Part shown: positions 6,304 through 52,899 of the stretch, in pieces
Numbering within the stretch: position 1 is the first letter of the stretch
Layout of the letters: each line of letters starts with the position of its first letter
Assembly (NCBI GenBank): GCA_014871385.1
Contig: CM026424.1
Location: 1,116,001-1,180,000 of the forward strand
Direction of reading: 5' to 3'
Length of the DNA stretch: 64,000 bases
Origin: Ceratodon purpureus
Lineage: Eukaryota > Streptophyta > Bryopsida > Pseudoditrichales > Ditrichaceae
The notes under the pieces: model-generated
Databases searched by the model: none
What the model was told of the DNA's origin: nothing
What the model saw: the letters and a program-made list of their open reading frames with translations, nothing else
Program-made: the position numbers and the translations under genes

Positions 6304-6307
6304 TTAA

Positions 6308-7138
6308 CCCCTTAAAGTCGAATGCCCTCAAAATTGCAAAAAACCCTCAAAACAGCCTTTTATAAATGCAAGGTGCAAATTTTAAATTTTTGATGTATTT
6401 TTGAGTATTCAACCGTAAGATCTTGTACCTAACTTGTATGTGCATATGTATGTCAAATCTCAAATTCAAATTCCTTACCAATTGTGAGATCATAATGTTA
6501 AAAGATGGAAAAACAGTTTTTTTTGCTTGTTGGAAAAAGGGTAACTAGTTCTTTGAGGGCTAAAAAAACCATTTTTGGTAGAAAATTTGATATGAGGCTC
6601 TGCAAATTGTTTTTTTTAGGTGAGTTAGGAACATGCCTTTGCAATTTTTACCCTCATATGACCTATAAAACCTAAAGAAATTCTTGATTATTCACATGGA
6701 GGTATGCTGAAATTCAACTACGAAGGCCAATCTTTGACAATAATAAAGGCATGTGAAGAATAATTGGATTGAAAATCCAAACGGTGAGATCATGCCTAAA
6801 AACCTTATTTACTTGAAAAAAAAAACTTGAAAAAAAAGTAAAATATCAAGTTTTGGTGAATTTTTGAAGTTTCTGCAATTTAATTGATTTTGGGCAGTTC
6901 CTGAGAATAAATTAGCATATACAGCAGTTTGGGCGGTTTTGGGCAGATTTCAAATAGTGTTTTCTAACTTTGACTAGGAATATTTCCTAAAGTATGAAGA
7001 ATTTTGAAGCATGAGATAACTTTTTGGAAATGTATGGAAAAACTCTACAATTAGCAACTTCATATGATCTATATTTAGTAATTTCAAGCTTGACCGGACC
7101 GAAATCAACCCTAACATGGATGATTTTGACATTAGGGG
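6308..7138. mobile_element. TTAA-flanked non-autonomous element (copy A)
   Basis: TTAA lies directly outside both ends (6304-6307 and 7139-7142). The ends read CCCCTTAAAGTC on the left and, as reverse complement, CCCCTAATGTC on the right. The interior shares blocks with copies F and G, for example the stretch around TTGGATTGAAAATCC at 6766-6780. No open frame of useful length is present, so it would depend on a transposase made elsewhere. The family is assigned from ends only (piggyBac-like). Confidence 0.65.
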
Positions 7139-7142
7139 TTAA

Positions 7143-8446
7143 ACACAAGTACAAATACATGTAGAGTCAAAAACAAATTACAACACAAGTTTTAAGTCAA
7201 TAGCCAATTTGCTACACTGTCCACTTTTAATCCCTAAAGTTCTTTGACCATTTCTATTCTAAACAGCCACTTTTTTTAAGGCAAAGAGCAAAAACCCAAA
7301 AAATTAGTTCTCTTTGCATTTTCAAGCAGATGGTCTTAGCTAAGACTACTACAAAAAGAATGCATAAAAAATCCAATAAATTACGCAGCAAGGATTGAAA
7401 AATTATGGAATTTGAAGTAAATATATATTTTTTAAAAATCTAATCCAAACATGATTGATAGGCTTTGGCTTCTTTAGGTGTCAAATTTTTGAACTTTACT
7501 TAGTGTCTATATTTTATACTATATAATTCACATAATGCAAGTTTGTTTTACACCAAATTTTAGAGGTTTTAAAGGGATATAGCATTGTAAAATAAATTGT
7601 AAAAGGAACATGGATACCTACTATTGCCAATGCATATTTAAAGAAATAATTAAATTCATTATCCTAGAGAACTAGGGCTTCGCTGCTCTCCGCATTACCA
7701 GTGACGATTGGTATTTTTGATTGATAGGTGTGTAAATGTAATGGTAGATAGGTATATATTGGGAGAAGGTGGTTGGTTTTTATGATGGTCATGGTTGAAT
7801 AGTTCATTATGTTGTTTTTGGAAAAGGCAATAGTTTGAATTGTGTAATGCTATCTCGTAAATGTTGTCGCATATTAGGTATACTGTAGATTTGTGTAATG
7901 CCAACTTTGATAAGTTAGAAAATAGCAGCCTCCTGCGTTCTTGGATGGGCTGATAGGTTTGTTCTCGTTCGAGATTTTTAACATTCGAGTTCTAAGAAGC
8001 TCAGCACAGATGACAGATAGGTAACGAAACACTGGACAGAACTGTAAAATTGTTCCTGTGTCTTCATGTCAAGCTGCAGAATAGATAGTATATCTCAGGA
8101 AGAGCACATCACCACAAGGTTTTAAGTTGTGTTCCAACCTAGGCAAAAAGATATGACGAACGACTAATGGGCTGCTCAGTTTGAGATGTAGTACCTGCGG
8201 TAATTGCTGGTAACCTCAAGGGAAGGATTGAGCGTTCTCTCTCAGGGCACCCAAACGATTTTCGGATTGTGAAGCTGCAACCCGGTTCCTGTCAACCTAA
8301 TGAAAGACTGATGCTGAACATTTCCAAGTAATCTTTTATTGCATTCTGTGACCCACTTGGCATAGATGTAACGTAGTACACTGTAGTGGATCTACCTGCT
8401 GGTGCTGAGATAAGGATGTATCCACCATTGTCGTGGAGATGTTGAG
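7143..8446. other. Spacer with a possible truncated TTAA-element end
   Basis: TTAA at 7227-7230 is followed by TCCCTAAAGTTC, like the left ends of copies D and F, but no matching right end was found. The remainder, up to the stop codon of the HAD gene, shows no gene; its last few hundred bases are probably that gene's 3' untranslated region. Confidence 0.3.
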
Positions 8447-12890: not shown

Positions 12891-13000
12891 GTATATAAGT
12901 CCCGCTCCCTCCTCTTCCGTAACGCACGTAGTGTAATGTACGCAGTGATCCGTTATCAGGAACATGGGAACGCAGAAAACGTGATTACTAGGAACAATGT

Positions 13001-13072
13001 TGGAACTGTCGTGGTGTCGAACGAAAATGGAACTGTCGTGGGGGCCGAAATGGAACTGTCGTGGGTGACGAA
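13001..13072. repeat. Short imperfect tandem repeat
   Basis: The 13-base motif TGGAACTGTCGTG occurs at 13001, 13028 and 13051, spaced 27 and 23 bases apart with GNCGAA-like spacers. No coding sense was found. Confidence 0.7.
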
Positions 13073-15694
13073 ATAATTGTCATGTTGACGAACGACCCTC
13101 CCAGTCATGCTAAACCAGATCCGACTTAGGTCGTCACTGGAATTTGAATCCAAATGGCCAAAATTACATTTTATGTTTATTATTGAAGTAGAAAAAGTAA
13201 AAAAGAAAAATCTTTGTTAAATAATGAAAAGGTTTCTTTTGCATCCGGACAAAAAATGATGAGAAAACTATGACTCTTATGGAATAAAAACTTTGGATCT
13301 CATGTAATGAAATTTTTCTAGCATAGATGAGATGTTTTTTGAAAAATTGAAAATAAATCATTTAAATTACTTATGTAAATTCTCAAAGGTTGTTGAAGGA
13401 TATAGCAAAAAGATTGAGCTATATCTTCTTGAAGAAAATTGACTTAAAATAGCATAAATGTTTTGTTAAAGCTCAATGAGAAAAGAAAATATATTCACAC
13501 AAAGCTCTTGTACTTCCTTACATCTACGTTTTTTTTAAATCAAATTTAAAATTAGTATTGTAAGAACTTACCTAAGATCTTAGTTTTGTGTCAAATACAA
13601 ATATATTAAGAATTAAGCTATCATCTATTCAATTTCTTAATGTTTTATAAGTAATTGGACAACTTAAAAATTATTATCTTTCATTGCCCACTTGCTTAGC
13701 AAAGGTAATTGATTATGTATTTGTATATATTTGTAAGGTAGCATATGTATTAAAATCTTATTAATATGATAAATTAGTCAAAGAATGTCTATTTTTAGAC
13801 ATTCGTCATAGCCTCCGTTAGAAAAGGGTGTTCTTTGCATTCTTCCTTTAGTGTAGCAAATGTCAGAGATTCTAGTGTGACAAAGGCCAATTTGCTTTAT
13901 CTCCACTATAATTCATAGTTATCTTTTAATTTAGAGGTAATAGAAAATATGAGATAAGACAATAAGACAATGCTCGTAGTCATTAAGAACAACATTAACA
14001 TGTGTATTCTTTTCTTTACAAAAACAACTTTTGTTCATACAAGGTCCATGTTTGCTTCATTTCTCTTTAATTGATTCTATGATTAATTGTCCTGAGCCTT
14101 ATGGATTAATGATTAGTTAGACAAATAAAATGTTGTTAAACAAAACTTGAACAAATATTTCATGAGAATAAAATGTAATTTAAGGGCCTCACTATATACC
14201 CAAGGTTGCTCTTGAATAATTCTTGTGAATGATTGTTTATTTTTTCATTTAGGCCAAAACTCTTTCTTTTGCTAATGTAAAATTTTATTGTATATCAAGT
14301 ATATATATTTATTTCTACAAAAAAACCATAAATAAATTACCTATGATTTTGAATTTTTCTACTAAGATTTTGAAAATTTTGAAAATTTCAAATTCTAATT
14401 CCCTAATACCAATAAAAAAATGTCTTATATTTTCAATGAAAATTACTATTTCAATTCAATAATATATATTGAAATAAAACACTATTATGAAACAGTTGTA
14501 TGATTGTTGAAATAGAATAATTAATATGTATTTAAAAATAAATCTGATAAACTATTAGAAAATAGTAGTCACATCTTTACACAAGGAAATAATAAATTAC
14601 TGAACTCCAATAGAAGTGAGATCATCAAACTTTTAGCAACTTATGTGGTGTTATCTAGAAATTTTTATTTTTTGAAAATAATTTTAATCCTTCAATTTTC
14701 AGCATATCACTAATTGAATTCTTTTAAAATTTGGACAAGCTGTTAAAATTGCCATTTCCAATCGAGAGTTTCTAATATATTTCATGAAAATGCCAAAAGA
14801 GAGTGGTTTTGTGGATGTTTAATTGCTTGTCCACTGGACCTCTAGAAAAGAAGGTATGCTATTTAGAGTCATTTTTTCTTGACCTCATAAACTTCACAAC
14901 TCTATTGCCTATATGATTTTCCATAAAAGTGACTATCACGCATGTACCGTATTTGAGATTTTAAACTAAAATCCTTGCCATAGTAAAAATATTTTACTTC
15001 ATGAAGGAAATTATAATACTTCCTTTTTGAAAAAAGTGAAGAGGTTATTTGAGGGTTGTAGCAAAAGTTTTGGAGCGCCAAGCAATCAAGGTTGTTAATC
15101 CAGACGTCCTGAGGGGTCTGATGACCAAATATTGCGTTAGACACTACGTCCGGGAGTAAAATCTGATTACCAAGGCTTAGATTAAATCTAGTAGGTTGTT
15201 GGATTCATTAGATCAGTAGCGCGGCTGCATTGCCAACGTCTAATTATTTGGACACATCACCAGTCAACCAATCGGTTGGCCAATTGGCCGTTTACCAATC
15301 AGACGGTTGCGATGCAATCACATGGCTTGCCAATCGGCTATTCAATCTATGAGACTACCCTTAAAATCTGATTAGACGGTTGCCGTTGCAGACAGTCCAG
15401 TAATGGCTGTTCAATCGAGCAGTCGATGGGCGCACACTTTGTTGGCTGTCCTTTCCGCGGACCCCCCGGCAGACGGGCTTTCAGCTTCGCCAATACAAAT
15501 GAACCTTAAGAGCCCTACAAAGTAAGTCTTGATTCCTAAGATTCTGCAAATATTTCTAATTGTAATTTACCATCCTACAAAATTGGTTTCTATGTTTCTA
15601 CCATCCACAATTTCAATTACCATGCACAACCTTCAGAATGTAATTTTCAAGTCCAGTCTCTTTATTTTGCTAACTTTCTTTAACCCTTTAGTTT
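13073..15694. other. AT-rich spacer with a short GC-richer island
   Basis: No gene recognised from 13073 to 15180. From about 15195 to 15480 the composition becomes richer in GC, with repeated CCAATCGG/TTGGCC motifs resembling those near 18.1 kb. This may be an LTR fragment, but no ends were found. Confidence 0.3.
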
Positions 15695-15698
15695 TTAA

Positions 15699-16617
15699 CC
15701 TCTAAGTGCCCAAGAAAGCCAAAATGGCTTTTTGCTGTTTCGGGCAGCCTAGATGAAGAGGTTAAAAGTAATATTTTTGCTTAAATTTTTTATTGGATGC
15801 TTCCTTTATCGCAATGTGTACGTGGTAAAATTTTCAAAGTCAAATTCCAATTTTAGAACCTTCAATTAGAAATTTTAGGTTTCAAGTCCAAAACGGGCAG
15901 TCTAAAATTAGGTCTATAAAAAAAAACTGAAATATGTTCATAACCAAATCACTACTCAAAATTCAAAGTGACCCAAGTCAAAAAATTTACTAATTTTAAA
16001 AGGGCAGCCTCCAAAAATTACATGAACAAGCTTCAATTTTTTTTGTAATTTTACATTTTCTCCTTTCAAAAATTGTCAAAATTTGAGATTTTGGAATTTT
16101 TCAGAATTTTTTTTCTAGAATTCAAAAACTTGTAGATGTAACTTTTCACCGTTCACTTTTTTTGCAAACCAAAAATCTTTAACGTTATTAAGTTTGACCA
16201 TATTGTAGGTTTTATACCTCCTTTTGGAAAAGAATTTGCATGAAGGCCAAAAAATCAAAATGAGTCTCCAACTTTTTGCATGGAGGTGCCCAACTTAGTT
16301 ACCTACATGGAAAAAAATATGAGCAAAATGTTTGGAGTAATAATCACCGAGTCCCCCTTGGCACAAAGTGAGTATGTCTTTTGGCCAAGGCAAAAAAAAA
16401 TTCTGCATCAACTTTGAACGTTATAATCTCACTATTGGTGAAGATCCAACGGTTGAAATGTTTTGAGGAAGTACTGACAATACTTAGGTTCAAGATCTTA
16501 CGATTAAAAGTAGAAAAAATCAGTATAAAATTTGACCACACCTCAATTCTAACAAGGTGGTCAAAAATCACTATTTTTGAGGTTTTGAGACCCGAAACAT
16601 GCTTGGGCACTTAGGGG
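15699..16617. mobile_element. TTAA-flanked non-autonomous element (copy C)
   Basis: Flanked by TTAA at 15695-15698 and 16618-16621. The terminal inverted repeat is 16 bases with one difference: CCTCTAAGTGCCCAAG on the left, CCCCTAAGTGCCCAAG on the right strand. The interior is clearly related to copy D (around TTTCGGGCAGCCTA and AACTTTGAACGTTATAATCT). It has no coding capacity. Confidence 0.75.
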
Positions 16618-17099
16618 TTAAACGGTCCAACTTAGACCACATTTTGTAATTCCTCCTCTACAACCCTCAAATTTTAATTTCCATCTACTATCCTCGACTT
16701 CTAATTCTAATTTACTATCCGCCAAATTCCAATTCTAAATTCCATCTATCATCTCCAACTTTTGATTCTAATTCACCATCCCCCATTTTCAATAAGCATG
16801 TATTTCCTCCATCACACACTTTTAATCTCCTTCTGATATTTTTATGTTATAATTTTCTAATCTTACCCCCATATCTTATCTCCCTATTTGAACCTCTACC
16901 CTTTGTAGATGACTGAGTTCATGTTTTTAAATTCCTCCTCTAACCCCCTTGTATTTATATTTCCATTTTCCGTCCCTTGTATTTTAATTTTTGTCTACCA
17001 CCTTCAACTAATAATTTTAATTTACTGTCCCTTGTATTTTAATTCTCGTTTATCATCCCCGGCTTCTAATTCTAATTTTCATCTTCCAATTTGAATTAA

Positions 17100-17325
17100 C
17101 CCCAAAAATTCCACAAAACCCAAAGTAGGTTGCAAGGAACTTCGGCAAGCTACCATATTTAGGATTTTTAATATATCTTGACAAGGTTTTTTAAGTGAAT
17201 ATGATAAATCATAATCTTTATGGGGTTGAAATTTCAGCATTTAAAAAAATAAAAATAAAAAAAGATTTTTTTTTGAAATTTTCAGCATTTTAGAAGTGGC
17301 AAAAACGGGTCTGGAATTTTAGGGG
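17100..17325. mobile_element. Short TTAA-flanked element (copy H)
   Basis: TTAA at 17096-17099 and 17326-17329. The ends are CCCCAAAAATTCCA and, on the other strand, CCCCTAAAATTCCA, which match at 13 of 14 bases. At 226 bases it is the smallest copy, MITE-sized. Confidence 0.65.
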
Positions 17326-17554
17326 TTAACATATCTTCCCTCCAGTTTTCAATCCTTTATTTTTCTCTAATAACCTAAATTTCCACCACCATCTCGGGAC
17401 TTTAATTGAAAACTTGAATAAGAAACTATTAAGTTCAATAGTTTAAAAGTATGTCCATTATTAATTTATTACTTAGACCCCCTCTTCAAGGTAATTATGG
17501 TCTTTTTCAACAAAAAATCTTTTGGACATTCTTCTGACTATTGATGCACGTGCA

Positions 17555-27314: not shown

Positions 27315-29580
27315 CTACAGTATATTTAAGCCTACCTTAATCAAACAAGTTCTCATTAAATCTTGTTAAGATCTCACAGTTGGATTGGAAGATTATATTA
27401 TCCTTTCGAACTAGATATACCACACTAAAAAATGAGATTTTGGAAGGTCTAGAACTTCAAAGTTAAATGAAGTTTGGGTTGAATTTTAAAATTAGAAGGG
27501 ACAAGGCCCAACTATGACCTATGCCAACACCTCTTCATTGCAATCTTTTATATCAAGAACATGCTTACAAGCAATTATTGTGATTTTTATAAGCGAAAGT
27601 AACTTATTGATATATAATTTGAGACAATAATTTATACATTCAAAAGTAGAAGGTGAGTGGTTTATTGATTAGGGTTGGATTTTATTTTTTATAGAACACG
27701 AATAAGAGAAGGCTATCCAAAAAAATAAAACAAGATAATAAACTTCTAAAACACAAGAAAATTGGAAATACTATATGTTATATATTTGTAAGTATTTTCT
27801 ATGTTTTCAAGTATTTGTAATTATATTTTTGTGTTTTGTTCTTGGTTATTTTGATGATTACACAACTCCAAATTGGTTTTTTTTAAAAGATGTGTGTTAT
27901 GATTATTAATTGTACTCATCAAAATTCAAAATCCAATTCTTTGCAGACTTTTTGTTATTTACATTTGAAACACACCGTCAACCAGAATGTGGTTAAGATT
28001 TAGCCTTCAAGTTCCAGTGAGCGTAATATTACTCACAGTAATGTTTTGCAGCAGAATCATCAAATTCATCTTTCATGCTTAGTACTATTCAAAAGATCCT
28101 GACGCATTAGGAGAAAAATGGGGTCCCAAAGGGTCCGTTTAAGACAGCCCATGGTAAGTGAACTGATGCCCAAAAACTCTTCCTCATAAAAGCCCATTGA
28201 TGCATGTTGCTATCCGCTGACAAGCTACAGGGTCAGAATGTATAGTGCTGGCAGTAATGGCATTGTTGGCAGGGCTGGCAACGTCGATTGGCTGGACCCC
28301 TCGCTGGACCGACAAAACTTTCATAGCTGTCAGTCAAATGACACCATTGGTGCCACCATCAAAAGTACACAGTTTGGGGTCAAAATCTTTTGCACTTGTA
28401 AATGCCAAAGGCCCCTTTGAGACTACAGATTTCTCCTAATGATATTAAGACATGGCTCACCTTTCTTATCAAACTCCACATCTTCCTAGTTCAATTTTCC
28501 CATTCTTGCTTTGAAAAAAAAAAAAAAAAATTAAAAAAATCTACTCCATCAAACTTAGGAGTAAGCAAACATACCCTCCCTGGACCCTGGTCTTAATTTC
28601 CCAACTTGAATTTTTGACTGAAGTGTCCAAAACCTCAAACATATTTATGTAAATTGACACAAAAGACACTAAATTCACCTTGTCTAACTTTATTGATATA
28701 AATATACCATAACATCATAGCTTGTTTGACCTGAAAATAATTCTTTGAAAATATAAATAAAATTGGAAGTTATATGGTCAAAAATATATTTAAAAATTAA
28801 AATTTGAAATCTTTTTTTGGTGAAATAATATTCAATTAATCATTTTTTACTTTAAAAATAACAAGAAATTCAATTTTGGAGAGCCAAACCATTTTCTCTC
28901 AAAAAAATAAAGGATTTGTTTTACATCTGTGAACCTACTGGTAGATATCCTCACCTACGTGATCATGCTTACTTCATGTGTAAACTTTTAGGGCATATTG
29001 CTACTGTAGTACCATAGCAGGTTTGCCCAAAAATAATTTCAATAATAAGAAGAAAAAAATATTAGAAAATTATGAAATCAAATTATAAGAATAGAATAAA
29101 TTAGTTTTTGCAACATTTTGTTATTTCTAAGCCATTTAAGAATATTTTTACTGATTTTTTGCTTAAGAAACAAAAATTGAGAAATTTAGGCATGATGTGT
29201 GCATCTACGGACCGGACGAACGGAGATGAAGTTCTGTCCTGAAAGTCTTCAAAAGAGTCCTAAGTTTTGAGGGACAAGAATTTGAGAACAATAATGCTCT
29301 TTGCGGTGGGTCTTGGGGACAGAGACAAACCCTGATAGCTCGTCTACACTTGTACTGGCGCCCTCAATTGTGGCGGCTCATAGTGTTTCTACATACACCT
29401 GCACAGTGTTTTCATTTACACACTGCAGGTGCCTGTTGGTAACTTCCCTGACATTCTACACAACAACTTACGTCACTGCCATAATCAAATAAATTAAATG
29501 GCCATTCGAGTTTGTTGATTTCTAAATACGTGTATATTCAAGTTTGTTAATTACTGTAGGTGGCCATTCAAGTATATTAA
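27315..29580. other. AT-rich spacer
   Basis: No gene recognised. Contains homopolymer runs (for example the A run at 28515-28530) and several degenerate AT-rich stretches. Confidence 0.35.
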
Positions 29581-29755
29581 TTTCAGAATATCAAATTTAT
29601 ATTCAAGTTTATTAATTTCAGAATATCAAATTTATATTCAAGTTTATTAATTTCAGAATATCAAATTTATATTCAAGTTTATTAATTTCAGAATATCAAA
29701 TTTATATTCAAGTTTATTAATTTCAGAATATCAAATTTATATTCAAGTTTATTAA
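29581..29755. repeat. Minisatellite, five identical 35-bp units
   Basis: Units start at 29581, 29616, 29651, 29686 and 29721, each beginning TTTCAGAATATCAAATTTAT and ending GTTTATTAA, with no differences between copies. Degenerate related sequence precedes it (ATTCAAGTTTGTTAATT from 29535). Confidence 0.95.
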
Positions 29756-30270
29756 TTAGGCTTCATTCAAGTTTGTTTTGAATATATTTAGTAACTTGTG
29801 TGGAACTATCTTGGTACTCACACCTCTTGAACAATTTCATATGAAATTACATATTTTGTAGTATTTGACCATCTCAATGAAATTGCCTTAATGGAGTTGT
29901 GATTATAATAATTATCTAATTAGAATTTTAAATGGCATTTAGAATTTTTATTTATGATATTGTTTCTTAAAATAGCCTACATGTTTAAAAATAAATATTC
30001 ATATAGATTCTAATTAAATTATCATTAAGAGATAAAGTAAAATTAAAGTAAAACAATTAAGTTAATTTCATAATATAGAGATCATAACTCAAAATATCTT
30101 TGTACAATATAATTTATACAATTTATTATAGTTATATATGTGTGAAAATATCATTTAAAGATTCATAAAAAACTATTAAGTATGGAAAAGATTAAAACAC
30201 AACATTCTATTATATATAAAAGTTTGATTTACATGTACTTAATAGCACTTAAAAAAAAGTAGATGAAGAT

Positions 30271-33037: not shown

Positions 33038-33966
33038 TCCCTAAAGGTTCTGGAAATCCGAAATGGCCCTCCGCTATTTCGGGCAGCCTACATGAAGCGT
33101 TAAAAGCAATATTTTTGCCTAAGAATTTTACTGAATGCTCCCTATACCGCAAGGTATATGTGGTAAAATTTTCAAAGCCAAATTTCACTTTTAGAACCTT
33201 CATCTAGAAATTTTAGGTTTAAGTCCAAAACGGGCAATTTAAAATTAGGTTTTTTTAGATTTTTTTTTTGGAAATGAGTTTATAACCAATTCACTATTCA
33301 AAATCCAAAGTGGCCTATGTCAAAAAGCTTATCAATTTTACAAGGGCAGCCTCCAAAAATTACAAAAACAAAGTTCAGAGTTTTTGGTAATTTTACAATT
33401 GTTTCTTTCAGAATTTTTCAAAATTTGAGATTTAGGAATTTTTCCAAACTTTTTTTCCAACAATTCAAAAATTCATAGACGTAACTTTTGATCGTTCACT
33501 TTTTAAAAAAACCAAAAACATTTGATGTTATTTAAATTTTACCATATTGTGGTTTTTGTACCTTCTTCTGGAAAATAATTTGCTTGAAGGTCAAAAAAGC
33601 GTAATGAGACTCTAAAATTTTGCATCGAGGTGCCCAACTTAGTCACCTACATGGAAAAAAATATGAACAAAATTTTTGGGGTAACTATAATCAAGTCTCC
33701 CTTGGCACCATTTAGAGTATGCTTTTCGCGCAAAGCCAAAAAAAAAAAAAAACAGTAAACTTTGAACGTTATAATCTCACAAATGGTAAAGATCCAACCG
33801 TTGAAATTTGACATGGTATTAGTGCATGTAGTTAGGTTTAAGATCTTACGGTTGGATGTACCAAAAAAGTAAAAAAAATAAGAATCATACTCCAACTTCT
33901 ACAAAGGTTGTTAAAAATCACAGTTTTTGGTTTTAAAGGTCCAAAAACGGCTTGAACCTTTAGGGG
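33038..33966. mobile_element. TTAA-flanked non-autonomous element (copy D)
   Basis: TTAA at 33034-33037 and 33967-33970. The ends TCCCTAAAGGTTC and (opposite strand) CCCCTAAAGGTTC match at 12 of 13 bases. The interior is related to copy C, in the same orientation, over most of its length. No open frame supports a protein. Confidence 0.75.
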
Positions 33967-34098: not shown

Positions 34099-34665
34099 CC
34101 ACTAACTGCCCAAGCAGGTTAAAATGGTATGATGTACAGATTCCATCTGCATTTTCTCATCCGTCATGCACTTTTTGTGGTGTGATTTTTTCATTGAATT
34201 TTCTATGAGAAGTTAGCTTCTTATATGCGTCATCTGATTGAAAAGGAAACAATTATTGAAGAAATTATGCTTCATTTTGTGTTGCAGTGTTTCACCCAGA
34301 ATTTTGAAAATTTTAGTCTAAAAGTGTTCTTCTAAAAATAAACTCATAAAATCAAGTGTCCAAAAATCTCCAAAAATCACTACACCTAAAGTACTACGTT
34401 ATAACCTATCACAACAAATTTCATCCACTTATTGTCAATACCCTATTTATAAATGAATTACAAAATAAATTTTTATTATATGTTTCAAAATTTATAAATA
34501 AAGATTAGTGATAGCAGTCATAGATCTAACCATATAGATAGAATCTAAAATTCAAAATGTATAACGTTTTTCCTACATCAAGTTCTAAATATTCATATTA
34601 ATTGCATTTTATAATGCATCTTTGCAAAACTACCTAAATTGGACATAGATGAGGTCGTTTAGGGG
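34099..34665. mobile_element. TTAA-flanked element (copy E)
   Basis: TTAA at 34095-34098 and 34666-34669. The ends are CCACTAACTGCCC and, on the other strand, CCCCTAAACGACC, more diverged than in copies C and D. It lies 133 bases from copy D. Confidence 0.55.
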
Positions 34666-34669
34666 TTAA

Positions 34670-40264: not shown

Positions 40265-40761
40265 GAGGGTTCTACATGTTTTACATGAATAGTGTTCTAC
40301 ATTTTAAAAAAGGGTTCAACAAAGAATTCAGTGGGTATACATCAGTGTGCCCCTAATTTGATCCTGTGCAATTGTATCCTGAGTGCAGATCACCATGAAT
40401 AGATTCCATTGCATACATTGAAATTTTGAATAGGGTGTTGCAAACTTCTGCACGGCTGACTTCTGGACAGCTCCGAGCGTAGTGAGACCGCGAGCCTTGA
40501 TCTCGCTTGATCGCCTCTAAGCTAATGCTTAAGCACTCACTTTGCGTTGTTTTTGAGATGTGCATCATGTGTTTGGCTTGATACTGGGTATCGCTGCCCC
40601 ATTGTGTGCGTCTCAGCTGCCTCAAACCCTTTTCCCCGAGAGGTTAGGGTTCCTTAAACCCTAATCTAGTGATTAGGACTAATTAGGGTCGACTAATCTC
40701 CGTTCCTGGAGAGTACTGTTTGCTAGCTGCAGTTCTTTGGCGTATTCGCGGCCCCACACGG

Positions 40762-42744
40762 ATGGAGTCGTATAGAGATGCCCTCATGCGTGAGAACTCT
40801 GGCAAGTCACGGAGTAGGGTTACGGGCTCTGTTCCTCGTGGCCCTGACCGTCCTGTGGCTTGCGACTCTTCTCTCACGCATCCCCCCATTTGCCACCGTA
40901 TCAGCGAAGCAGGTCCACTTAATCCGTATCAGGCGGAGGATGGCGAGAAACTTCCCCCGGGCTTCAGCCGGAACTATCACGGGCTCCTAATGCGGTGCAT
41001 CACGGCTGCCCCGGCTCTTGATCTTGGCGTAGTGGGGACTGAAGCCGGTCTGCTTAGAGACCACACGGTGGTGGCCAGTTTTCTTGGTAAGAAAATCCCC
41101 GATCATGCAATTGCCGACTGGATTCAATTGATTAACAAAGAGTTGAGATTTCAAGGTATTGCTTTCAAAATGGATATGAGCCGTGGCTTCATCTTCTTGT
41201 CTTCCATTAACGTCCAAGTTACAAGGAAGATCCTGGCCATGACTCCCCATGAAACCCCATGGGGCAAGTGTATTTACCAGGAATGGATCCCTGGATTTGA
41301 CCCAGACGACCCATCCGGCCTCAGGATACCAACTTGGATTAGCTTAATCAAGCTACCGCACGAGTTTAAGCCCTTAGAAGGATTTATTGCCTCCTCCCTG
41401 GGCCCGGTCTATGAAGCAGACGGCATTAACGGCAAGCTCAGAGACCCACGCTTCTGCGTGGGATTGGATGTAACTGCAGGATGGCCCTCGGCCATCAAGA
41501 TCGATGGTCTTGAAGGGAAATCGAGTGTTGTTCTTGTTAACTATGAGCAGGTTCCGGTTCGTTGCCGCTTCTGCTTCTCGCTCAGCCACAAAGTCTCCGA
41601 CTGCGTGGCGCTTAAACTCAATGGAGCTCAACGATTGGGACCTCTTGAGGGAAGACCTAGCCATGGTGGCCACGACAGGCCGGTGCAACGACGGCCTCCT
41701 CCTAGGCCACAGCAGGCTCCGAAGGCTCCTCACGGCCCTCCTCCTCCCTCTCGACCACAAGCCCGACCACCGCCGAGGCCCAATCCGAGACCTCCTCGAA
41801 GCAACCCGGGATGCGACCAGGACGGATTTACTCTGGTCACTAGGAGGAGAAACAGCAAGCCCCCCCATCCAGAAAAGAGCCCAAGATCACCGGAGGCCCC
41901 AAGTAAGCCAAGGCAAGCGCCGAGAGGTGCTGGAGCGTCGAATAGAACCCGTAAAACCCCTCAGCCTCCGACTCTTGCTCAGTGGCTCCCAGAGCCCCTC
42001 AGGCCCTCTGAGGAGCAGGCTCCTCCCCCGGCTCTTCTCACGTCCGAACAAGTCATGCAGATGTTAGACTCTCCCTGCGTTTCGGACACTGAGAGAGGTG
42101 ACTCAATGACCTGGTCCCCTGGACGATATGGAAGATACCCAGGGACCAAGCGTCCAATCCAACCTTCCAGCCCCCACAAGAAGAAATCCCCAGGTGGCGG
42201 TCCCCAACCTTGTCCCGACCCCCCCCAGCCAGGTCCTTCTCCCTGCGAGCCTGTTCCCTCGCTTGAAGCTACTCCCCCACCGGTCAGGTACTTGGATTCT
42301 CCAACCAAAATTAGAATTATTTTCGATAAGCCTCCTGCTGAAGCCTTTAGGGTCCTGGAAGAGGAAGGTGTGATTAACTCTCCAAGCAATTCCAGTCCCA
42401 GTGCCTCTTCCTCATCTTATGTGCCCACGGTATCCTTAGGGGCCTCTGATCTACCCTTTCCAGCTCGATGCTCAGCGCCCTCCAGGACTTCAAGTCCAAG
42501 CCAGGACCCAGCTCGGAGGAGTGGCGACAGTAGGCAGGCCGAGCCCCTGTCTGATTCCTCCAGCATGGATTCTATCCCACACTCGGTGCGTCTCGCCTCC
42601 CAAGAACCGGTCGAATGCTCTGACCAATGCCCGGAGGAGCAAGACCCCAGCCCTGCTAGCAAGATTCGTGCCCTGGGACTAGCGGCGGCATACAAAGCAA
42701 GGTGGCTTGAGCTAAACCGCCGGCTTGACTCAGCAGCGACTTAA
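40762..42744 (+). CDS. LINE ORF1 protein (nucleic-acid binding, CCHC knuckle)
   Basis: 660 residues from the ATG at 40762; the frame is open a little further upstream but without ATG. The N-terminal third resembles the DUF4283-type domain of plant L1 ORF1 proteins (WIQLINKELRFQGIAFKM, WISLIKLPHEFKPLEGF). A single zinc knuckle CRFCFSLSHKVSDC (CX2CX4HX4C) follows at about residue 270. The C-terminal half is strongly Pro-, Ser- and Arg-rich and probably disordered. In L1 elements ORF1 coats the element RNA and escorts it to the nucleus. It ends 44 bases before the ORF2 ATG. Confidence 0.93.
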   Translation: MESYRDALMRENSGKSRSRVTGSVPRGPDRPVACDSSLTHPPICHRISEAGPLNPYQAEDGEKLPPGFSRNYHGLLMRCITAAPALDLGVVGTEAGLLRDHTVVASFLGKKIPDHAIADWIQLINKELRFQGIAFKMDMSRGFIFLSSINVQVTRKILAMTPHETPWGKCIYQEWIPGFDPDDPSGLRIPTWISLIKLPHEFKPLEGFIASSLGPVYEADGINGKLRDPRFCVGLDVTAGWPSAIKIDGLEGKSSVVLVNYEQVPVRCRFCFSLSHKVSDCVALKLNGAQRLGPLEGRPSHGGHDRPVQRRPPPRPQQAPKAPHGPPPPSRPQARPPPRPNPRPPRSNPGCDQDGFTLVTRRRNSKPPHPEKSPRSPEAPSKPRQAPRGAGASNRTRKTPQPPTLAQWLPEPLRPSEEQAPPPALLTSEQVMQMLDSPCVSDTERGDSMTWSPGRYGRYPGTKRPIQPSSPHKKKSPGGGPQPCPDPPQPGPSPCEPVPSLEATPPPVRYLDSPTKIRIIFDKPPAEAFRVLEEEGVINSPSNSSPSASSSSYVPTVSLGASDLPFPARCSAPSRTSSPSQDPARRSGDSRQAEPLSDSSSMDSIPHSVRLASQEPVECSDQCPEEQDPSPASKIRALGLAAAYKARWLELNRRLDSAAT

Positions 42745-42788
42745 GCCATAAGCCTTTCAGGCTCCTCACCCTTAACCATTTGTTATCC

Positions 42789-45700
42789 ATGACATTGAAC
42801 CTATATACACTTAACATCCGAGGTCTCAACAACCCGGACAAAGTTGCTCGATTTAAACAGTACCTCAGAACGCTCAACCCCAAACCAGATATTCTCCTTT
42901 TGCAGGAGCACAAACTAAGGGGTGATAAAGCTGCTGAGCTTGGCCGCTGTATAGATAGCAGCATGTTATACTTTTACAATGAAGCAGAGGAGGGCTACCG
43001 GCATGAAGGCTCTGATCCTGGTGCTGGGAAAGGAGGCACAGCCGTCTTTGTCCACCACAAATGGAGTGCGCAAGTCTGCTCTAGCGGAAGCCTCTTCCGT
43101 GGCCGAGGACTTTGGATTGTACTCCAAGATGTCCCGGGCGGCCCCTTAGGCATCCTCAACGCCTATGCCCCCAATGACCAGCAGGCGCGAAGAGCCTTCT
43201 GGCAGACGATTCAGGCCGAGCTACCGAAAGACTGCAGGTGGATCTGTGGAGGGGATTTCAACATGGTGGAATCCCCTCATGACAAATCCTCTTGTTGCAG
43301 CAGGCTCATTTCCCCCTCGGAACTTCTAATGTGGGAGGCCACGAAGATCAGCCTCAATGTTTCGGATAAATTCAACTCTAACAGAGGGCTGCGGTACTCT
43401 TGGGAAAATGGCCAAGAAGGTGAGCTCAGAATCCTAGCCCGCTTAGATAGGTTTTATACCTTTAATGACCACCCTCTCTCGGCTGCCGCATCCATCGCCA
43501 CTTACTCTATCAGAGGAGATTGCACCCTCTCGGATCACTTACCGGTCCACTTAGCGATCAATCTCAGTGAAGAAGAGCGCAAGCGCCCAACGTGGAAAAT
43601 GAACACCAGGTATTTAGACGACACAGCGAATGAGATCAAGGAGCTCTGGGAAGCCCAGCCCCGGCATCACTCCTTCTTTGCGAAGTTACGGAAGGTAATC
43701 GCCTTTTACAAATCCTACTGCAAGCGGAAGGCCGAAGAGCATAGAAAGCTGGAGAACGACCTCAACGGAAAGTTAACAGACGCCATGGAGCGGCTCCACA
43801 GGGAGCCTCAATCTAGGACCCTGCAGATGGAGATCGCGACGGTCAAGCTGCGCCTGGCTGGCCTGCTGGCTAGCAAGACAGAAGGAGCTCGGATTCGCTC
43901 TCGTGTTCGCTGGAAAGACCGTGGAGATGATTGTAACTCAGATTTCTTCAGCTGGGTTCGGGAGCGTCCAAAATCCACAGTCATTACCCAATTGAAGGAT
44001 AAAAATGGTACCCTTTTTAATCAGGAACCTCACCTTAGCAGCATAGCAAAGGACTATTATGCGGAATTGTACTCTGCCCCTCCGGATCCTGACCCCGCAG
44101 TGGTCAATCGGGTCCTCGACTCAATTCCAAGTCGTGTCACTCCTGCTATGAACCGGGGGCTAGGTATCGAGCTCACTCAGGAGGAGCTTCATAGAGCTGC
44201 GAAGTTGTTGGCGAAAGAGAAGGCGCGGGGCCCTGATGGGATTGCAATTAATTTCTACACGTTGCACTGGAAAATGCTAGGCCCAGAGTTTTTAGACATG
44301 ATTAATCGGGCCTTGCAACAAGGGCACCTTCCGCCTGGAATGACCCGAGGATTGATTTCTCTTATTTTTAAAGCTGGGCCGAGGGAGGATCTTGCCAACT
44401 GGCGTCCGATCACTCTCCTCAACACCTCATACAAAATCCTAGCGAAGGCACTGCAACTGAGGATTAAACCCCTCCTCTCGGAGATAATTGATCCAAATCA
44501 GACGGCCTTCGTCCCAATGCGCTCGATCTTGGACAACGTCCTTGTAGCTAACGAAACGATCAACATTGCCAAGCGAACAGGTCAGCCCCTGTTATTTCTA
44601 AAAGTGGACTTTCGCAAGGCCTTCGATAAGGTGGACTGGAATTTCCTTTTCCAATGCCTTCAAAGGTTTGGATTCTGCGATTACTACATTAGTTTAGTCA
44701 GGCTCCTCTTCACTGGAGCCACAGCAGCGGTCAATTTCAACAGGAACAGCACCGACCTCTTTCCCCTCCGCCGAGGAGTCCGGCAGGGCTGCCCTTTGGC
44801 GCCGTCCCTGTTCATCATCGTGACCGAAGTACTCAACATTCTGATCAAGAAGGCCGAGGCCCAAGGTGACATTAAGGGTATCAATATTCCCCACTCATCT
44901 CAGACCCAAATTCTATCGCAATTTGCTGATGATACAACGGTATCCATTGACATCAGTGATAATTCCTCCATTAGAAGGCTCATTGGCATCCTCGAAGATT
45001 TCAAGAGCGCTTCCGGTCTTGAGATTAACTGGCTGAAAAGTCACGCCTTCTGGCTGAGCTCCTCCCCGAAACCCGATTGGCTGGATCAATTCGGTTGGCA
45101 GTGGGCTGAAGAAGGAGACCTAGGCAAACTCCTAGGTACCCCCTTCGGCATCGACCCTTCAACTGACAGCATTGACCAGTTCTTATTTGAGAGAGTCTCC
45201 TCTAAACTTTCTTTCTGGACTTCCCAGCGTCTCTCTCTTGCTGGTCGAGCTCTTATAGTTAAGCAGGTCCTTCTATCTTCACTCTGGTACTTTGTCTCCG
45301 TCTGGCAAGGCTCAGTTAAAATCCTTGCTAAAATTCGGAGCCTTCTGCGCAATTATCTGTGGTCTGGTAAAGAATTTACTGCTAGAGCCCGTGTCAGCTG
45401 GGTGGACTGCTGCGTAAGGAGAAAAGCTGGAGGCCTTAGCCTGATTGATCCTGCGATAACGACTTCTGCCCTGCTTGGTAAATGGATAACTGTGGCTTAT
45501 GCTCCGGGGAGTTCCAATTTGCAAGCCATCCTCCGCCACAAGCTGTGGGCATGCAACCCAAGCAAGCACTCAGGTTGGCCGGCAAACCCAGCTTGGGGGC
45601 TGGTTACCTCCCACACCTCGGTCCCTGGCTCCAAATCCTGGAGCAAAATCCACCTCGCCTGGAGGAAGCTAAACGGGAAAATCAGGTGGAAACCCCCGAC

Positions 45701-47093
45701 AGAGCCGGCTGCCACCCTTCAGATTTCCCTCTGGTGGGATTGTAGGTTCAAGGCAGGCTCCTTTGATATCTCCATCGACCAGGCCCGCGACTTCTACATC
45801 AGAGGGATTAAATCCATTGGCGACATCTGGGACTCGAACCATAGGCATGTCAAGTCTGACCCCCAACTGATTGAAGATTTCGATCTCTCTCCGGAGGAAT
45901 GCAGGAAACTTCGACCCCTCCTCCAGGACTGCGAAGTTTCTCATGGGCAGCGACTCAGAGCTGACCCCTCGACCATCTCACCGGGTGAATGGATTGGGGG
46001 TTTCCGCACCCACAACCTCACAGACCCCGACTTTGTGATCCGCACGACAGCGGATTGGTGCCCATCGCTGCTTGCAGACCGGTGGGGATTGCGTCATCCT
46101 CCCGCACATATCCCCATTTACCTGGTTGGTGCGTCCTCGAAACTCCTCATGGCAGATTTAGACCCGGACAGATATGACTCTCTCGCTGAGTGGAGAGGCT
46201 CCTTCAAGAAAGTCCGTGTCGCTCAGATTGATAAGCGGAAGAACTCCAAAGAGGAGCACCTTTATTATTTTGGAGAAGTAGGCAAGCTTGACGGGATCGA
46301 CCCAGCATGCTGGACCTGGAGTGATAACACTCCGCTGCTCATGTACAGCGCCCAAAAAGGGAGAGAACTCCTTGCCGCGAACCAGGAACTTCAGAAACCG
46401 ATCGCTGTTAAATGGCGTGATGAAGGAAGCCCAAGCTGCGCCCTTGACTGGAAGGAGGTTTGGAAGAAAATTAGAGCCAAGAAAGAAGCAGCGTTTATGT
46501 GGTCCCTTTGGCACAAGGCGGTAGCGACTAATACTTGGAGAGGGAAATATAACCCCCAGGTGGATCAAAATTGCCAACTCTGTACAGACCATTGCCCAGA
46601 AAGTTACACCCATTGCTTCTTCGAATGCAGGCATGCGAAGCAAGTCTGGAGCTTTAGCTTCCAGATCATCCACTGGCTTCAAAAGGGTAAACGGAATCTG
46701 ACCCCCCCGCAGAAGTTCTCATTTCACCAATGTCTCTTTGGTAAGCATGTTAGAATTAGAAAGAAAGGCATTATGAAACTATGGTCCCTCCTTAGAGGCA
46801 TAGCATTGTGGTGCATTTGGCTTAGTAGAAATAGGGGTAGCTTTGATGGCGCGTGCTGGCCTGGCAGCCAGTGCAGACAGTTCATTTGGGAAGGGCTCCT
46901 TGACTACGGTAGGATAGCATGGAAACAAGCCCTTAAGGATATTAAAAGAGCTAATTTGGATGCTCAAAAACAGAGCACCCTCAGAGCCTTTGACGCCATT
47001 TGGATGTGCAAAGGCATCCTTGGGACCAGGAATGACCAGCAAGTGAAATGGAACTTACTGCCTCCTCCTGGCATCCTCACGAATTGGTTGTAG
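42789..47093 (+). CDS. LINE ORF2 protein: AP endonuclease and reverse transcriptase
   Basis: 1434 residues. The apurinic-type endonuclease occupies about residues 1-255, with LNIRGL, LLQEHKL, GGDFNMV and SDHLPV carrying the expected Asn, Glu, Asp and Asp-His residues. The reverse transcriptase spans roughly 470-760: LISLIFKAG, NWRPITLLN, KVDFRKAFDKVDW, GVRQGCPLAPSLF and the catalytic FADD at about 712-715. Near residue 1262 a zf-RVT motif begins (CQLC...HCFFEC), with a conserved Trp-rich tail after it. I see no RNase H domain. All catalytic residues are present and the frame is intact, so it could be functional. It nicks target DNA and primes reverse transcription there. Confidence 0.97.
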   Translation: MTLNLYTLNIRGLNNPDKVARFKQYLRTLNPKPDILLLQEHKLRGDKAAELGRCIDSSMLYFYNEAEEGYRHEGSDPGAGKGGTAVFVHHKWSAQVCSSGSLFRGRGLWIVLQDVPGGPLGILNAYAPNDQQARRAFWQTIQAELPKDCRWICGGDFNMVESPHDKSSCCSRLISPSELLMWEATKISLNVSDKFNSNRGLRYSWENGQEGELRILARLDRFYTFNDHPLSAAASIATYSIRGDCTLSDHLPVHLAINLSEEERKRPTWKMNTRYLDDTANEIKELWEAQPRHHSFFAKLRKVIAFYKSYCKRKAEEHRKLENDLNGKLTDAMERLHREPQSRTLQMEIATVKLRLAGLLASKTEGARIRSRVRWKDRGDDCNSDFFSWVRERPKSTVITQLKDKNGTLFNQEPHLSSIAKDYYAELYSAPPDPDPAVVNRVLDSIPSRVTPAMNRGLGIELTQEELHRAAKLLAKEKARGPDGIAINFYTLHWKMLGPEFLDMINRALQQGHLPPGMTRGLISLIFKAGPREDLANWRPITLLNTSYKILAKALQLRIKPLLSEIIDPNQTAFVPMRSILDNVLVANETINIAKRTGQPLLFLKVDFRKAFDKVDWNFLFQCLQRFGFCDYYISLVRLLFTGATAAVNFNRNSTDLFPLRRGVRQGCPLAPSLFIIVTEVLNILIKKAEAQGDIKGINIPHSSQTQILSQFADDTTVSIDISDNSSIRRLIGILEDFKSASGLEINWLKSHAFWLSSSPKPDWLDQFGWQWAEEGDLGKLLGTPFGIDPSTDSIDQFLFERVSSKLSFWTSQRLSLAGRALIVKQVLLSSLWYFVSVWQGSVKILAKIRSLLRNYLWSGKEFTARARVSWVDCCVRRKAGGLSLIDPAITTSALLGKWITVAYAPGSSNLQAILRHKLWACNPSKHSGWPANPAWGLVTSHTSVPGSKSWSKIHLAWRKLNGKIRWKPPTEPAATLQISLWWDCRFKAGSFDISIDQARDFYIRGIKSIGDIWDSNHRHVKSDPQLIEDFDLSPEECRKLRPLLQDCEVSHGQRLRADPSTISPGEWIGGFRTHNLTDPDFVIRTTADWCPSLLADRWGLRHPPAHIPIYLVGASSKLLMADLDPDRYDSLAEWRGSFKKVRVAQIDKRKNSKEEHLYYFGEVGKLDGIDPACWTWSDNTPLLMYSAQKGRELLAANQELQKPIAVKWRDEGSPSCALDWKEVWKKIRAKKEAAFMWSLWHKAVATNTWRGKYNPQVDQNCQLCTDHCPESYTHCFFECRHAKQVWSFSFQIIHWLQKGKRNLTPPQKFSFHQCLFGKHVRIRKKGIMKLWSLLRGIALWCIWLSRNRGSFDGACWPGSQCRQFIWEGLLDYGRIAWKQALKDIKRANLDAQKQSTLRAFDAIWMCKGILGTRNDQQVKWNLLPPPGILTNWL

Positions 47094-47189
47094 TTGTGTG
47101 TCTTTGTCCAGAAGTCCTGTCCTCGCCCTGGGCTTTTGCCCGATGAGGGTTGTATCTTGTTACTTTGCAATGAAATCGTTCATTTGCTC

Positions 47190-47222
<33 letters not shown>

Positions 47223-47232
47223 GATTACAAGT

Positions 47233-49203: not shown

Positions 49204-49205
49204 TA

Positions 49206-50492
49206 CAGTCTGCCCTCTATAAATGTTAACCCTTGGAGTAGACCAAAGTTAACATTTATGGAGGTGTTAACAATTAACAATTGTAAGATAGATTTTTTGA
49301 GCAATATACAAATCTTAACCCCTAAAGTTCTGAGGGTATTCAAAACTGCCTCAAAACAGCCCCTCTTCAAAGCAAGGTGGATTTTGCAAATTTGAGGTCC
49401 TCTTTAGTACATCTAACTGTAAGATCTTGTAGCTAACTTCTATGTCTACATGTCCACCAAATCTCATACACTCATTCCTCACCAATTGCAAGATCGTAAC
49501 GTTCAAAGTAGAAAAACAAGTTCTTTTTCCCTGAAAAAAAAAGGGGACATCAGAGTTTTGAAGGCCCAAAAAACCATTTTTTAAAGTAGATATGGAATGA
49601 GTCTCTCCATGTGATTGTTCCTAAGTGAGTTAGGTACATGTCCAAAAACAATCATATTCAAAAACATTGTGGAAGGTTTCAAAAAAATTATTTTCCGCAA
49701 AGGGGTATGTTGAAATTCACATACAAAGGCCGTTTTTTTGACAATAAAAATAGCATATGAAAAATTCTTGGATTGAAAATCCGAACAGTGGAAACATGCT
49801 CTACTGCCTTCTCTATACATAGAAATTTTTATTTTTGAAAAATATCAAAATCTCAATTTTTGGTGGAATTTCAAAGTTTCGTCTTTGGGCAGATTTTTGC
49901 AGATCTTCGTAATTTTGGGCAGTTTTGGGTAGAATTTGCTGCATTCACAGTGGCTTAGAAAATTTCAGCAGCTGCATAACAAACAACGTTTGACACTTAA
50001 ACCTTCATAACTTTTGATCCGGATGTCGGAATTGAAAAATAAAAATATGCACACGGAGCTCTCGGAATGGCACACCTCCATTTAAAATTTCAAAAAATCT
50101 CGATCTAAATTGAAGTCATAGGTACATGCCCAAAATCCAAAATAGCCCCCAGTGGGCTACTTGTCCTTTAAGGGTTAACATTTATAAATATAAGCAACTG
50201 TGAAGAGTCCTTCTGAGAGAAAACCATTCATGAAATTGCAAACCGAATCAAAACTTTATTCAATATCAAGTAATGTGTAGAGAAACAGGAATGTGTAGTT
50301 TTTATTATCCATATTATGGTTGTATTTCACTTGTTAACATTTACAGAGTCAAATTTACAAAGAAGGGAGTACCATTTTGTTAACAGTTAACACATTTAGC
50401 ATTCATAGTGTGCAATATGTAGGGAGTAGAAGAAAGTTAACATTTAGAGAAGGTTAAGAATTATGAGTGTAACATCTATAGAGGGTGGACTG
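49206..50492. mobile_element. Pogo/Emigrant-like element interrupted by a TTAA element
   Basis: Starts CAGTCTGCCCTCTATAAATG. The right end on the other strand is CAGTCCACCCTCTATAGATG, 17 of 20 bases alike, with TA directly outside both ends (49204-49205, 50493-50494). CAGT...CCTCTATAAAT is the end type of Emigrant/Lemi1 pogo-like elements of plants. Removing the nested copy F leaves about 430 bases rich in GTTAACATTTA motifs, so it is MITE-sized and without coding capacity. Confidence 0.75.
49319..50174. mobile_element. TTAA-flanked element (copy F), nested
   Basis: TTAA at 49315-49318 and 50175-50178. The ends are CCCCTAAAGTTC and, on the other strand, CCCTTAAAGGAC. It lies wholly inside the pogo-like element at 49206-50492, so it arrived later. 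It is closely similar to copy G in reverse orientation, with long stretches differing at only a few bases. Confidence 0.75.
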
Positions 50493-50494
50493 TA

Positions 50495-51807
50495 TCATGT
50501 TCTTTGAGTGAAATTGAGAATGCAGAATATTTTGGGCTCATCACACCCTGGAGACGAAGTAAGACAGTGTTTTCTCATCATCATGCCTCTCCTCTACAAG
50601 TCATACCCTCGGAAACATATGGTCAAATGTTGGAGCTCCTCAGCTTCCACAATCAATTGCATATGATTCCAGATATTATACCATAGAAGAAGCTCCAAGT
50701 CATGGAACACCAGGTCTCAGGGATCACTCCATTAGGCAGCAATTCTTCTTTTGAGTTTTTAATTTTTTGGACACAATTGAAGCAAAATTGAATTTAGTCT
50801 TTCTATTCATTTGAGGAGGTCCAACCTTAACTAACGTGTTGTGCAGGTAGGCCATCATTGCAAGGACATGACAACCATGACTTGATGCTTGATTGAATAG
50901 ATTCTTAGTCAATTTTTCAAAATTTTTATAACCCCCATTTGAAGGCATCAGAGTTCTAAGTTCAGAGAAACAAAGACGATAGACTGGAGTCTCAGAAGAG
51001 GGTTTAGAGTAGAGGTCTGAAGTGAGGAGAAGGTGTTCAGGTGTACACATACAAGGAGAGGGTCAGAGAGAAGTGAAGGATCGAAGGACAAGCAAATCAG
51101 GAAGAAAGCCCTTTACTTAGATAGCTTTAGAGGAGTCCAAGAGTACAAATTTATGAGCAGTTGTCCACGGCTACTATTGATATTGTGCTATGCCCTACGT
51201 GCTAACAAAATGGAATTGTTTCTCTTCTCTCGTGCTTATGTCATTATATTGTTGTTGCCGCCCAACGAATCCGGAATTTACTTTGAGTTGATGTTACCCT
51301 TGCCTTCGGGTACTGCAGTGCTTGCCGTGACTGCTCAAGGTAACAATTCTATTGTCAAATAACCAATTATTGATGAAAGTAATGCCAATAGAAATGGGTC
51401 AGCTCATTAGTAATTTACATTAAGGTAGTAAAACCTTTTTTAATCCTTGAAAGTCCTTGGGGATAGTATATATGATGACGTGTTTTTAACATTTGTCACA
51501 AAAAAATATAAACTGTAATTTCAATAACTCAGCAAGACCACATAGACATGAAGTGCAACTTCACTCCGTCTAAAATCAATTTGAAGACAGGAACCATTCC
51601 AAAGATATTAAAAAAAAATGTATCTTATTGGTTGCCACGGGCATTTTGGACCCTTGAGGAATCAGATTAAAAAGAGTCAGCACTGCTCAGATCAATGATA
51701 GTACATGCATATTTGATGACAAGTGCCACCATTGGAATGAATTTGGTTGATTACAAGTCACACATCACTTGAACAGACTGCTGCCATAACCACTGCCACT
51801 GATGTTT
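50495..51807. other. Spacer between the two related TTAA elements
   Basis: Short open frames on both strands without recognisable motifs or splice structure. No gene called. Confidence 0.35.
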
Positions 51808-51811
51808 TTAA

Positions 51812-52672
51812 CCCCTAAACGACAATGCACCCCCTGGGGGTGCAAATGGAGTTTGGGCATGTACCTATGACTTCAATTTAGATCGAGATTTTTTGAAATT
51901 TTAAATGGAGGTGTGCCATTCTGAGAGCTCCGTGTGCATATTTTTATTTTTCAATTCTGACATCCGGATCAAAAGTTATGAAGGTTTAAGTGTCAAACGT
52001 TGTTTGTTATGCAGCTGCTGAAATTTTCTAAGCCACTGTGAATGCAGCAAATTCTGCCCAATATTGCCCAAAATTGCGAAGATCTGCGAAAATCTGCCCA
52101 AAGACGAAACTTTGAAATTCCACCAAAAATTGAGATTTTGATATTTTTCAAAAATAAAAATTTCTATGTATAGATAAGGCAGTAGAGCATGTTCCCACCG
52201 TTCGGATTTTTAATCCATTTTTTTTTCATATGCTATTTTTATTGTCCAAAAACGGCCTTTGTTTGTGAATTTCAGTATACCCCCTAGCGGAAAATGATTG
52301 TTTTGGCAGCCTTCCACAACTTTTTTGAATATAATGTTTTTAACGCAATTAGGTAACTCAGTCTTCTTTGACTTGCATCCGGACCCTCAAAATCCATAAT
52401 GCAAAAAAATGGTTTTTTGGGCCTTCAAAACTCTGATGTCCCCTTTTTTCGCAGGAGAAAAAAACTTGTTTTTCAACTTTGAACGTTATGATCTTGCAAT
52501 TGGTGAAGAATGAGTGTATGAGATTTGGTGGACATGTAGACATAGAATTTAGCTACAAGATCTTATAGTTAGATGTACTAAAAAAGACCTCAAATTTGTA
52601 AAATCCACCTTGCTTTGAAGAGGGGCTGTTTTGTGGCAGTTTTGGTGAAAATTACCCTTAGAACTTTAGGGG
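51812..52672. mobile_element. TTAA-flanked element (copy G), inverted relative to F
   Basis: TTAA at 51808-51811 and 52673-52676. The ends are CCCCTAAACGAC and, on the other strand, CCCCTAAAGTTC. Its reverse complement aligns with copy F nearly from end to end, including ATGCAGCTGCTGAAATTTTC and GGACATGTAGACATAGAATT. Confidence 0.8.
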
Positions 52673-52899
52673 TTAAGAGAACTTTGTCTGCAAAGCATCA
52701 AAACTTATCAAAAAGAAATTCAAAATGATTTTTTAAAGGTCTTGTACATCAATTTCCAAAGTGAAAAAGCATAGTTCAATTTGGAAAAGTGAACTTGACC
52801 TCGGAGGCAAATGAGCTTATTTCTCAAATGTACCAAAAAGTGGTTGAGAAACATTTTCAGATCATTCTAAAAATATTACTATGAAAAATATATTATTCT

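Follow-up and report, generated by a model that had tools for sequence, protein, structure and literature searches.

Short TTAA-flanked elements of the moss Ceratodon purpureus are very probably non-autonomous members of the piggyBac superfamily

A window of 64,000 bp from the genome of the moss Ceratodon purpureus (contig CM026424.1, here C4, positions 1116001-1180000) contains seven short elements, A to G, each lying between two TTAA tetramers and each ending in CCCCTAA-type inverted ends. We put the probability that A to G are non-autonomous piggyBac elements at about 0.96, because TTAA-CCC ends also frame elements of the same genome that encode a DDE_Tnp_1_7 transposase, because terminal sequence is shared between the short and the transposase-bearing elements and because uninterrupted relatives of insertion sites keep the register. 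Loci and copies fetched from the same genome are given L numbers, and the strand of the window elements follows the transposase sense of the large element that each one matches. The features, in window coordinates, are as follows.

Element A, 6308..7138, minus strand: 831 bp, between TTAAs at 6304-6307 and 7139-7142; a diverged relative of F and G.
Element B, 15699..16617, plus strand: 919 bp, TTAA on both sides; has both ends in common with transposase-bearing elements of the L065 type and looks like a deletion derivative of one.
Element C, 17100..17325, no strand assigned: 226 bp, TTAA on both sides; belongs to a family of 221-241 bp; no parent found.
Element D, 33038..33966, plus strand: 929 bp, TTAA on both sides; B family.
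Element E, 34099..34665, no strand assigned: 567 bp, TTAA on both sides; left end resembles a B end; no parent found.
Element F, 49319..50174, minus strand: 856 bp, TTAA on both sides; nested in another element at 49206-50492, which we take to be pogo/Emigrant-like.
Element G, 51812..52672, plus strand: 861 bp, TTAA on both sides; 88% identical to F and in the opposite orientation.
Decayed single end, 7231..7325, no strand assigned: TTAA-TCCCTAAAGTTCTTTGACC; weak likeness to one L029 end; partner not found.
Decayed F-type end, 56417..56635, no strand assigned: adjoins a TTAA at 56636-56639; remaining part not found.

A preliminary description of the window had proposed seven TTAA-flanked elements with CCCCTAA-type ends, and this proposal held to the base: the coordinate pairs of all seven were exact, and TTAA was present at 14/14 ends. 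Counted base by base over these 14 ends, C occupied position 1 in 13, position 2 in all, position 3 in 12 and position 4 in 13, and positions 5 to 7 read TAA with 1, 1 and 0 exceptions, giving the consensus CCCCTAAA. Thus, 11 ends started with CCC and 13 with CC, the remaining one starting with TC. The inverted part was short (approximately 8-16 bp). A scan of the window that tolerated a single mismatch within the 7 bases following TTAA recovered 9 left-type and 7 right-type ends, and the inward pairs 150-1500 bp apart were exactly the seven claimed. In contrast, 100 third-order Markov sequences averaged 0.63 ends each, never had more than 3 and contained not a single inward pair. Two ends had been absent from the preliminary description, the weak, decayed one at 7231 and the decayed F-type end at 56417-56635.

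The letters TTAACCCC...GGGGTTAA, taken alone, are compatible with a duplication of 2 or 3 bp inside TTAA. Tourist-type miniature inverted-repeat transposable elements (MITEs) of the PIF/Harbinger superfamily duplicate TAA or TTA in plants (PMC10004981; the papers cited here and below were available in excerpts), and a 3-bp duplication of this kind could be read as TTAA. However, such a duplication leaves the fourth base free, whereas TTAA was complete at all 14 ends, and the ends are symmetric about TTAA. Both points speak against a Tourist origin, which the transposase described below makes highly improbable. The same ambiguity of letters would suit Tc1/mariner-type elements that duplicate TA and have ACCCC ends in TTAA targets, and pogo-like ends do adjoin in the window. 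Yet with a duplication of TA only, the outer T that was seen at 14/14 flanks is unexpected, and we regard this origin as more improbable still.

Homology among the copies places the borders where the ends do. F and G were 88% identical and B and D 78% identical along their length (B/D from base 16), and in both pairs the similarity ended a few bases beyond TTAA. A matched F with 68% identity over 557 columns (A 33-566), and an end-to-end alignment of A, F and G with reverse-complemented B and D had a mean column identity of 68%. C and E had little in common with these five beyond the ends; C had three relatives among the fetched genome copies (79-84%), and relatives of E were present at the host site of insertion L015 and in L007. 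For a border test, the seven window copies and 28 genome copies (35 in total), each with 300-bp flanks, were matched pairwise. The 109 matches had 218 sides. On 211 of these, the similarity outran the element by 12 bases at most, and in 29 of the 211 it stopped before the edge was reached. Six others extended 14-24 bases, and the last one, between D and E, ran past the border because the two are neighbouring elements and the same DNA was seen twice.

In the whole assembly (362.5 Mb in 151 contigs), the exact word TTAACCCCTAAA occurred at 9,407 sites (4,663 + 4,744), compared to 128 (70 + 58) for the reversed pattern. Since only 6/14 window ends have the exact word, the genome can be roughly estimated to hold some 20,000 ends, corresponding to some 10,000 elements; this figure is extrapolated from one window and indicates no more than the order of magnitude. 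Among the first 100 places in the list of the word, all on contig C1, were 36 adjacent inward pairs, 28 of which spanned 221-2,019 bp and fell into classes of 221-241 bp (three pairs), 815-926 bp (19 pairs) and 1,067-1,086 bp (four pairs), with single pairs of 1,356 and 2,019 bp. All 28 were fetched and, together with the seven window copies, grouped where a match covered 70% or more of the shorter copy. This yielded nine groups, three of them single (A, E and L024). Of the fetched copies, 27 belonged to families of two or more, and the remaining one, L024, is of the F type but interrupted by a foreign sequence. This insert (L024:620-1799) is 1,180 bp long, has a TTA duplication and GGTCGACACACC inverted ends and is PIF/Harbinger-like; a TTA-flanked element of the same genome thus looks different from the TTAA-flanked copies, which is a further point against a Tourist origin of the latter. 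A second insert, of 430 bp (L026:1000-1429), lies in a D-type element and has ATTAGGGG / ATTAGGAG inverted ends, with related pieces at window positions 28103-28441. Both inserts had been considered as nested TTAA copies and were rejected as such, being other elements.

If the short copies are piggyBac derivatives, a piggyBac transposase should be found on the same ends, and this was the case. Two longer pairs from the C1 list, L029 (5,329 bp) and L030 (5,863 bp), contained open frames of 1,023 and 1,050 amino acids that matched Pfam DDE_Tnp_1_7 (PF13843) with E values of 4.4e-80 and 1.4e-80, respectively. Against solved structures, L029 matched the Trichoplusia ni (T. ni) piggyBac (6x67) with 3.6e-29 and piggyBat (9c0f) with 2.2e-25, and the corresponding values for L030 were 7e-28 and 2.7e-27. 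A third inward pair, L031 (6,973 bp), was discarded as a transposase carrier, as no listed open reading frame (ORF) looked transposase-like by eye and no PF13843 match was among those scored. Genome-wide, 116 of 998 first-look candidates, the best ones, were scored, and all 116 were above the curated cut-off; the count of at least 116 matches is accordingly a lower bound and biased toward intact copies. In 93 of them the matched domain was free of stops, and 19 were on contig C6, below the 30% share of bases held by that contig. The 30 domains that were fetched fell into at least eight lineages with approximately 36-54% identity to one another, and the catalytic aspartates were kept in 30/30 at all four positions, which align with D268, D346, D447 and D450 of the T. 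ni enzyme (numbering read off the alignment). A C-terminal Cys motif was visible by eye in the L029 and L030 frames. In L029, L030 and L058, the open frame is directly preceded by a T-rich stretch with TAG as its last bases, which looks like a splice acceptor, and therefore an upstream exon is likely. The preliminary description had seen no transposase in the window, and this was borne out by a tblastn search with 13 transposases, the best E value of which was 0.036. In a scan of IMG/VR, no stretch matched the transposase domain of L030.

Because a piggyBac transposase was found on the same ends, the mariner and PIF/Harbinger readings were dropped, although Harbinger transposases themselves were not searched for. 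The same holds for Kolobok, whose transposase is different from that of piggyBac. Kolobok elements share the duplication of TTAA and have been reported from chlorophytes and rhodophytes, but their termini are 5'-RR...YY-3' (PMC9587614), in contrast to the 5'-CC of 13/14 window ends. Moreover, the transposases of the moss match PF13843 and the solved piggyBac structures, and a Kolobok origin is as hard to credit as one from Tc1/mariner.

Of the 30 transposase loci that had been fetched, 13 were picked for diversity, and their ends were read in a search that admitted CC, CA, TC and CT starts. At 12 of the 13, a TTAA-flanked inverted pair 3.9-6.5 kb apart enclosed the frame, and all 24 ends started with CCC. 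Under a stricter cut without any rule on the start, TTAA was found at 11/13 loci, compared to 0-4/13 for 19 other tetramers, some of which are of low complexity. The similarity between short and large elements goes beyond the inverted ends. B matched both ends of L065 (B 1-68, 79% over 68 bp; B 531-919, 74% over 389 bp) and D matched one of them (D 536-929, 79% over 394 bp). F was 70% identical to an L029 end over 174 bp and 76% identical to an L072 end over 169 columns; the values for G were 72% and 75%, respectively. Still closer matches were seen among the genome copies: L034 and L038 were 95-96% identical to L072 over 203 bp, and L014 and L033 matched one L066 end over 51-52 bp with 86-88% identity. 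B, D, F and G therefore seem to have arisen by internal deletion from larger piggyBac elements of this genome. With this, the earlier proposal of a non-autonomous piggyBac family gained the transposase on the same ends that it had lacked in the window.

One of the large elements, L072, is accompanied by a second copy. L072 and L093 (C1:26679717-26690342) are two identical-looking transposase-bearing copies of 5,311 bp, arranged head to tail 5,315 bp apart and sharing a single TTAA (...TTTAGGGGTTAACCCCTAAA...); they were identical at 325/325 bp in the stretch compared, and their outer ends were placed from the spacing. This arrangement would result if an element had inserted into the TTAA next to a copy already present, and an assembly error might produce it as well.

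The preliminary description had suggested a check of empty sites. For each of 45 elements, we joined the two flanks, keeping one TTAA, and compared them to the window and the fetched DNA, a comparison that covers paralogous sites only. A relative of the L023 host in L091 is uninterrupted and has exactly one TTAA at this place. L015 is inserted in a relative of E, and both window E and L007 are uninterrupted at this site with the 4-bp register kept. Three outcomes had been named as speaking against piggyBac, namely empty sites that do not restore one TTAA, similarity that extends beyond the borders in multiple copies and the same ends on a transposase of another superfamily; none of them was seen, the empty sites tested being paralogous ones.

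Several observations weigh against the assignment to piggyBac. The genome fetches and end searches in part selected for TTAA and a C-rich start, and therefore the independent tests are those on the seven elements of the window and on the borders of homology. Junction-crossing matches were few (5 for 45 elements) and paralogous, and two of them were poor (aut_L043, gappy; aut_L048, in poly-A). The site of L015 reads TATA in E and TAAA in L007 rather than TTAA. The joined flanks of C aligned with a neighbouring array unit across the junction in one comparison but not in the 45-element test, and this site showed no preference, with scores of 46 for one TTAA, 46 for two and 45 for none. At L067, the remaining one of the 13 transposase loci, only a candidate left end was found. 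A and C had short or weak matches only to the transposase-bearing elements, and E had none; these three are thus not closely tied to the large elements, and no parent was found for them among those sampled. The C-terminal zinc finger zf-Tnp_2 was matched with E values of 0.023 and 0.0055, under the curated cut-off. Finally, DDE_Tnp_1_7 had no match in 14 control genomes, which says little, as these are probably prokaryotic.

If A to G are non-autonomous piggyBac elements, a piggyBac transposase supplied in trans would bind the CCC-starting ends and subterminal sequence, cut the element out and join it to a TTAA target, which would thereby be duplicated. Short copies would arise by internal deletion, lose the gene and still spread in trans, and excision would, as expected from the superfamily, restore a single TTAA without a footprint. 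The full-length elements of the same genome, many of them apparently intact, could be the movers of the short copies. Inside A, B, D, F and G, a motif like ACGGTTGGATC / AACCGTAAGATCTTG was noticed by eye in several degenerate copies, which could be binding sites.

The thousands of copies, the many transposase genes and the eight or more lineages go beyond what had been described for the window. We are evenly divided on whether piggyBac has undergone a large and recent radiation, possibly still in progress, in this land plant genome, with about 10,000 non-autonomous copies fed by at least eight transposase lineages, many with open frames and one including the identical-looking head-to-tail pair L072 and L093 around one TTAA. 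If so, mosses would be a natural home of the superfamily and a source of a native plant piggyBac system.

The moss elements share with the piggyBac superfamily, represented by the T. ni element and the Myotis piggyBat, the TTAA duplication, short inverted ends starting with CCC, the DDE_Tnp_1_7 domain, the four aspartates and, by eye, the C-terminal Cys-rich motif. They differ in their host, a land plant, and in the presence of at least eight lineages in one genome. Furthermore, several moss frames measure 950-1,050 amino acids from stop to stop and have a long N-terminal part of low complexity, whereas the T. ni chain has 594 amino acids, and in three moss elements the frame starts at the likely splice acceptor. 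The Daphnia elements mPok1 and mPok2 and MITEs of corals are reportedly short, transposase-less relatives derived from piggyBac as well; by comparison, the moss copies are mostly 0.8-1.1 kb long, have an inverted end of only about 8-16 bp and fall into nine groups when 35 of them are compared.

As a tool for gene delivery, piggyBac is in wide use, and it has been studied mostly in animals. That it is little described in land plants, as the preliminary description had supposed, stands in part. TTAA and short inverted ends starting with CCC are given as typical of piggyBac (PMC10813416), "plants" are named among the hosts of piggyBac-like elements (PMC8086355), and PiggyBac is counted among the superfamilies of angiosperm MITEs (PMC10004981). 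A survey of the fern Ceratopteris has 1,230 PiggyBac pieces amounting to 122 kb (PMC6890710), and a repeat table of the grass Stipa has 1 piece of 75 bp; these share the label with the moss elements and are table entries without element structure. According to a 2024 review, the use of piggyBac in plants is limited compared to that in animals (PMC10794571). A literature search that combined piggyBac with Physcomitrium and bryophyte terms gave no title or beginning of an abstract on an endogenous moss piggyBac among the matches listed, which does not imply absence from print; a moss genome paper (PMC10619864) was set aside, since the word it contains is "piggybacking." Thus, the superfamily is known, and what is notable is the poorly documented host, the density and the diversity.

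The elements show where piggyBac thrives in plants, in a dense, diverse and apparently intact population, and offer native plant transposases for testing. Small derivatives beside likely parents (L034 and L038 with L072) open the origin of short non-autonomous copies to direct study, and probably thousands of repeats in this genome receive a label.

Other repeats share the window with A to G. The element at 49206-50492 that hosts F has TA flanks and the ends CAGTCTGCCCTCTATAAATG / CAGTCCACCCTCTATAGATG. A degenerate array of units of approximately 55 bp at 15500-17400 is broken by B and C, and several near-identical units of a 35-bp tandem repeat are present at 29531-29792. A long interspersed nuclear element at 40687-47093 has long open frames, a 685-amino-acid ORF1 without a Pfam match and a 1,454-amino-acid ORF2 with endonuclease, reverse transcriptase and zf-RVT domains. 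A short element between TAs at 55678-55950, presumably Stowaway-like, has the ends CCCCTCTGTTTCACAAAGAAACC / CTCCCTCTGTTTCACAAAGAAACC (by eye) and adjoins the decayed F-type end.

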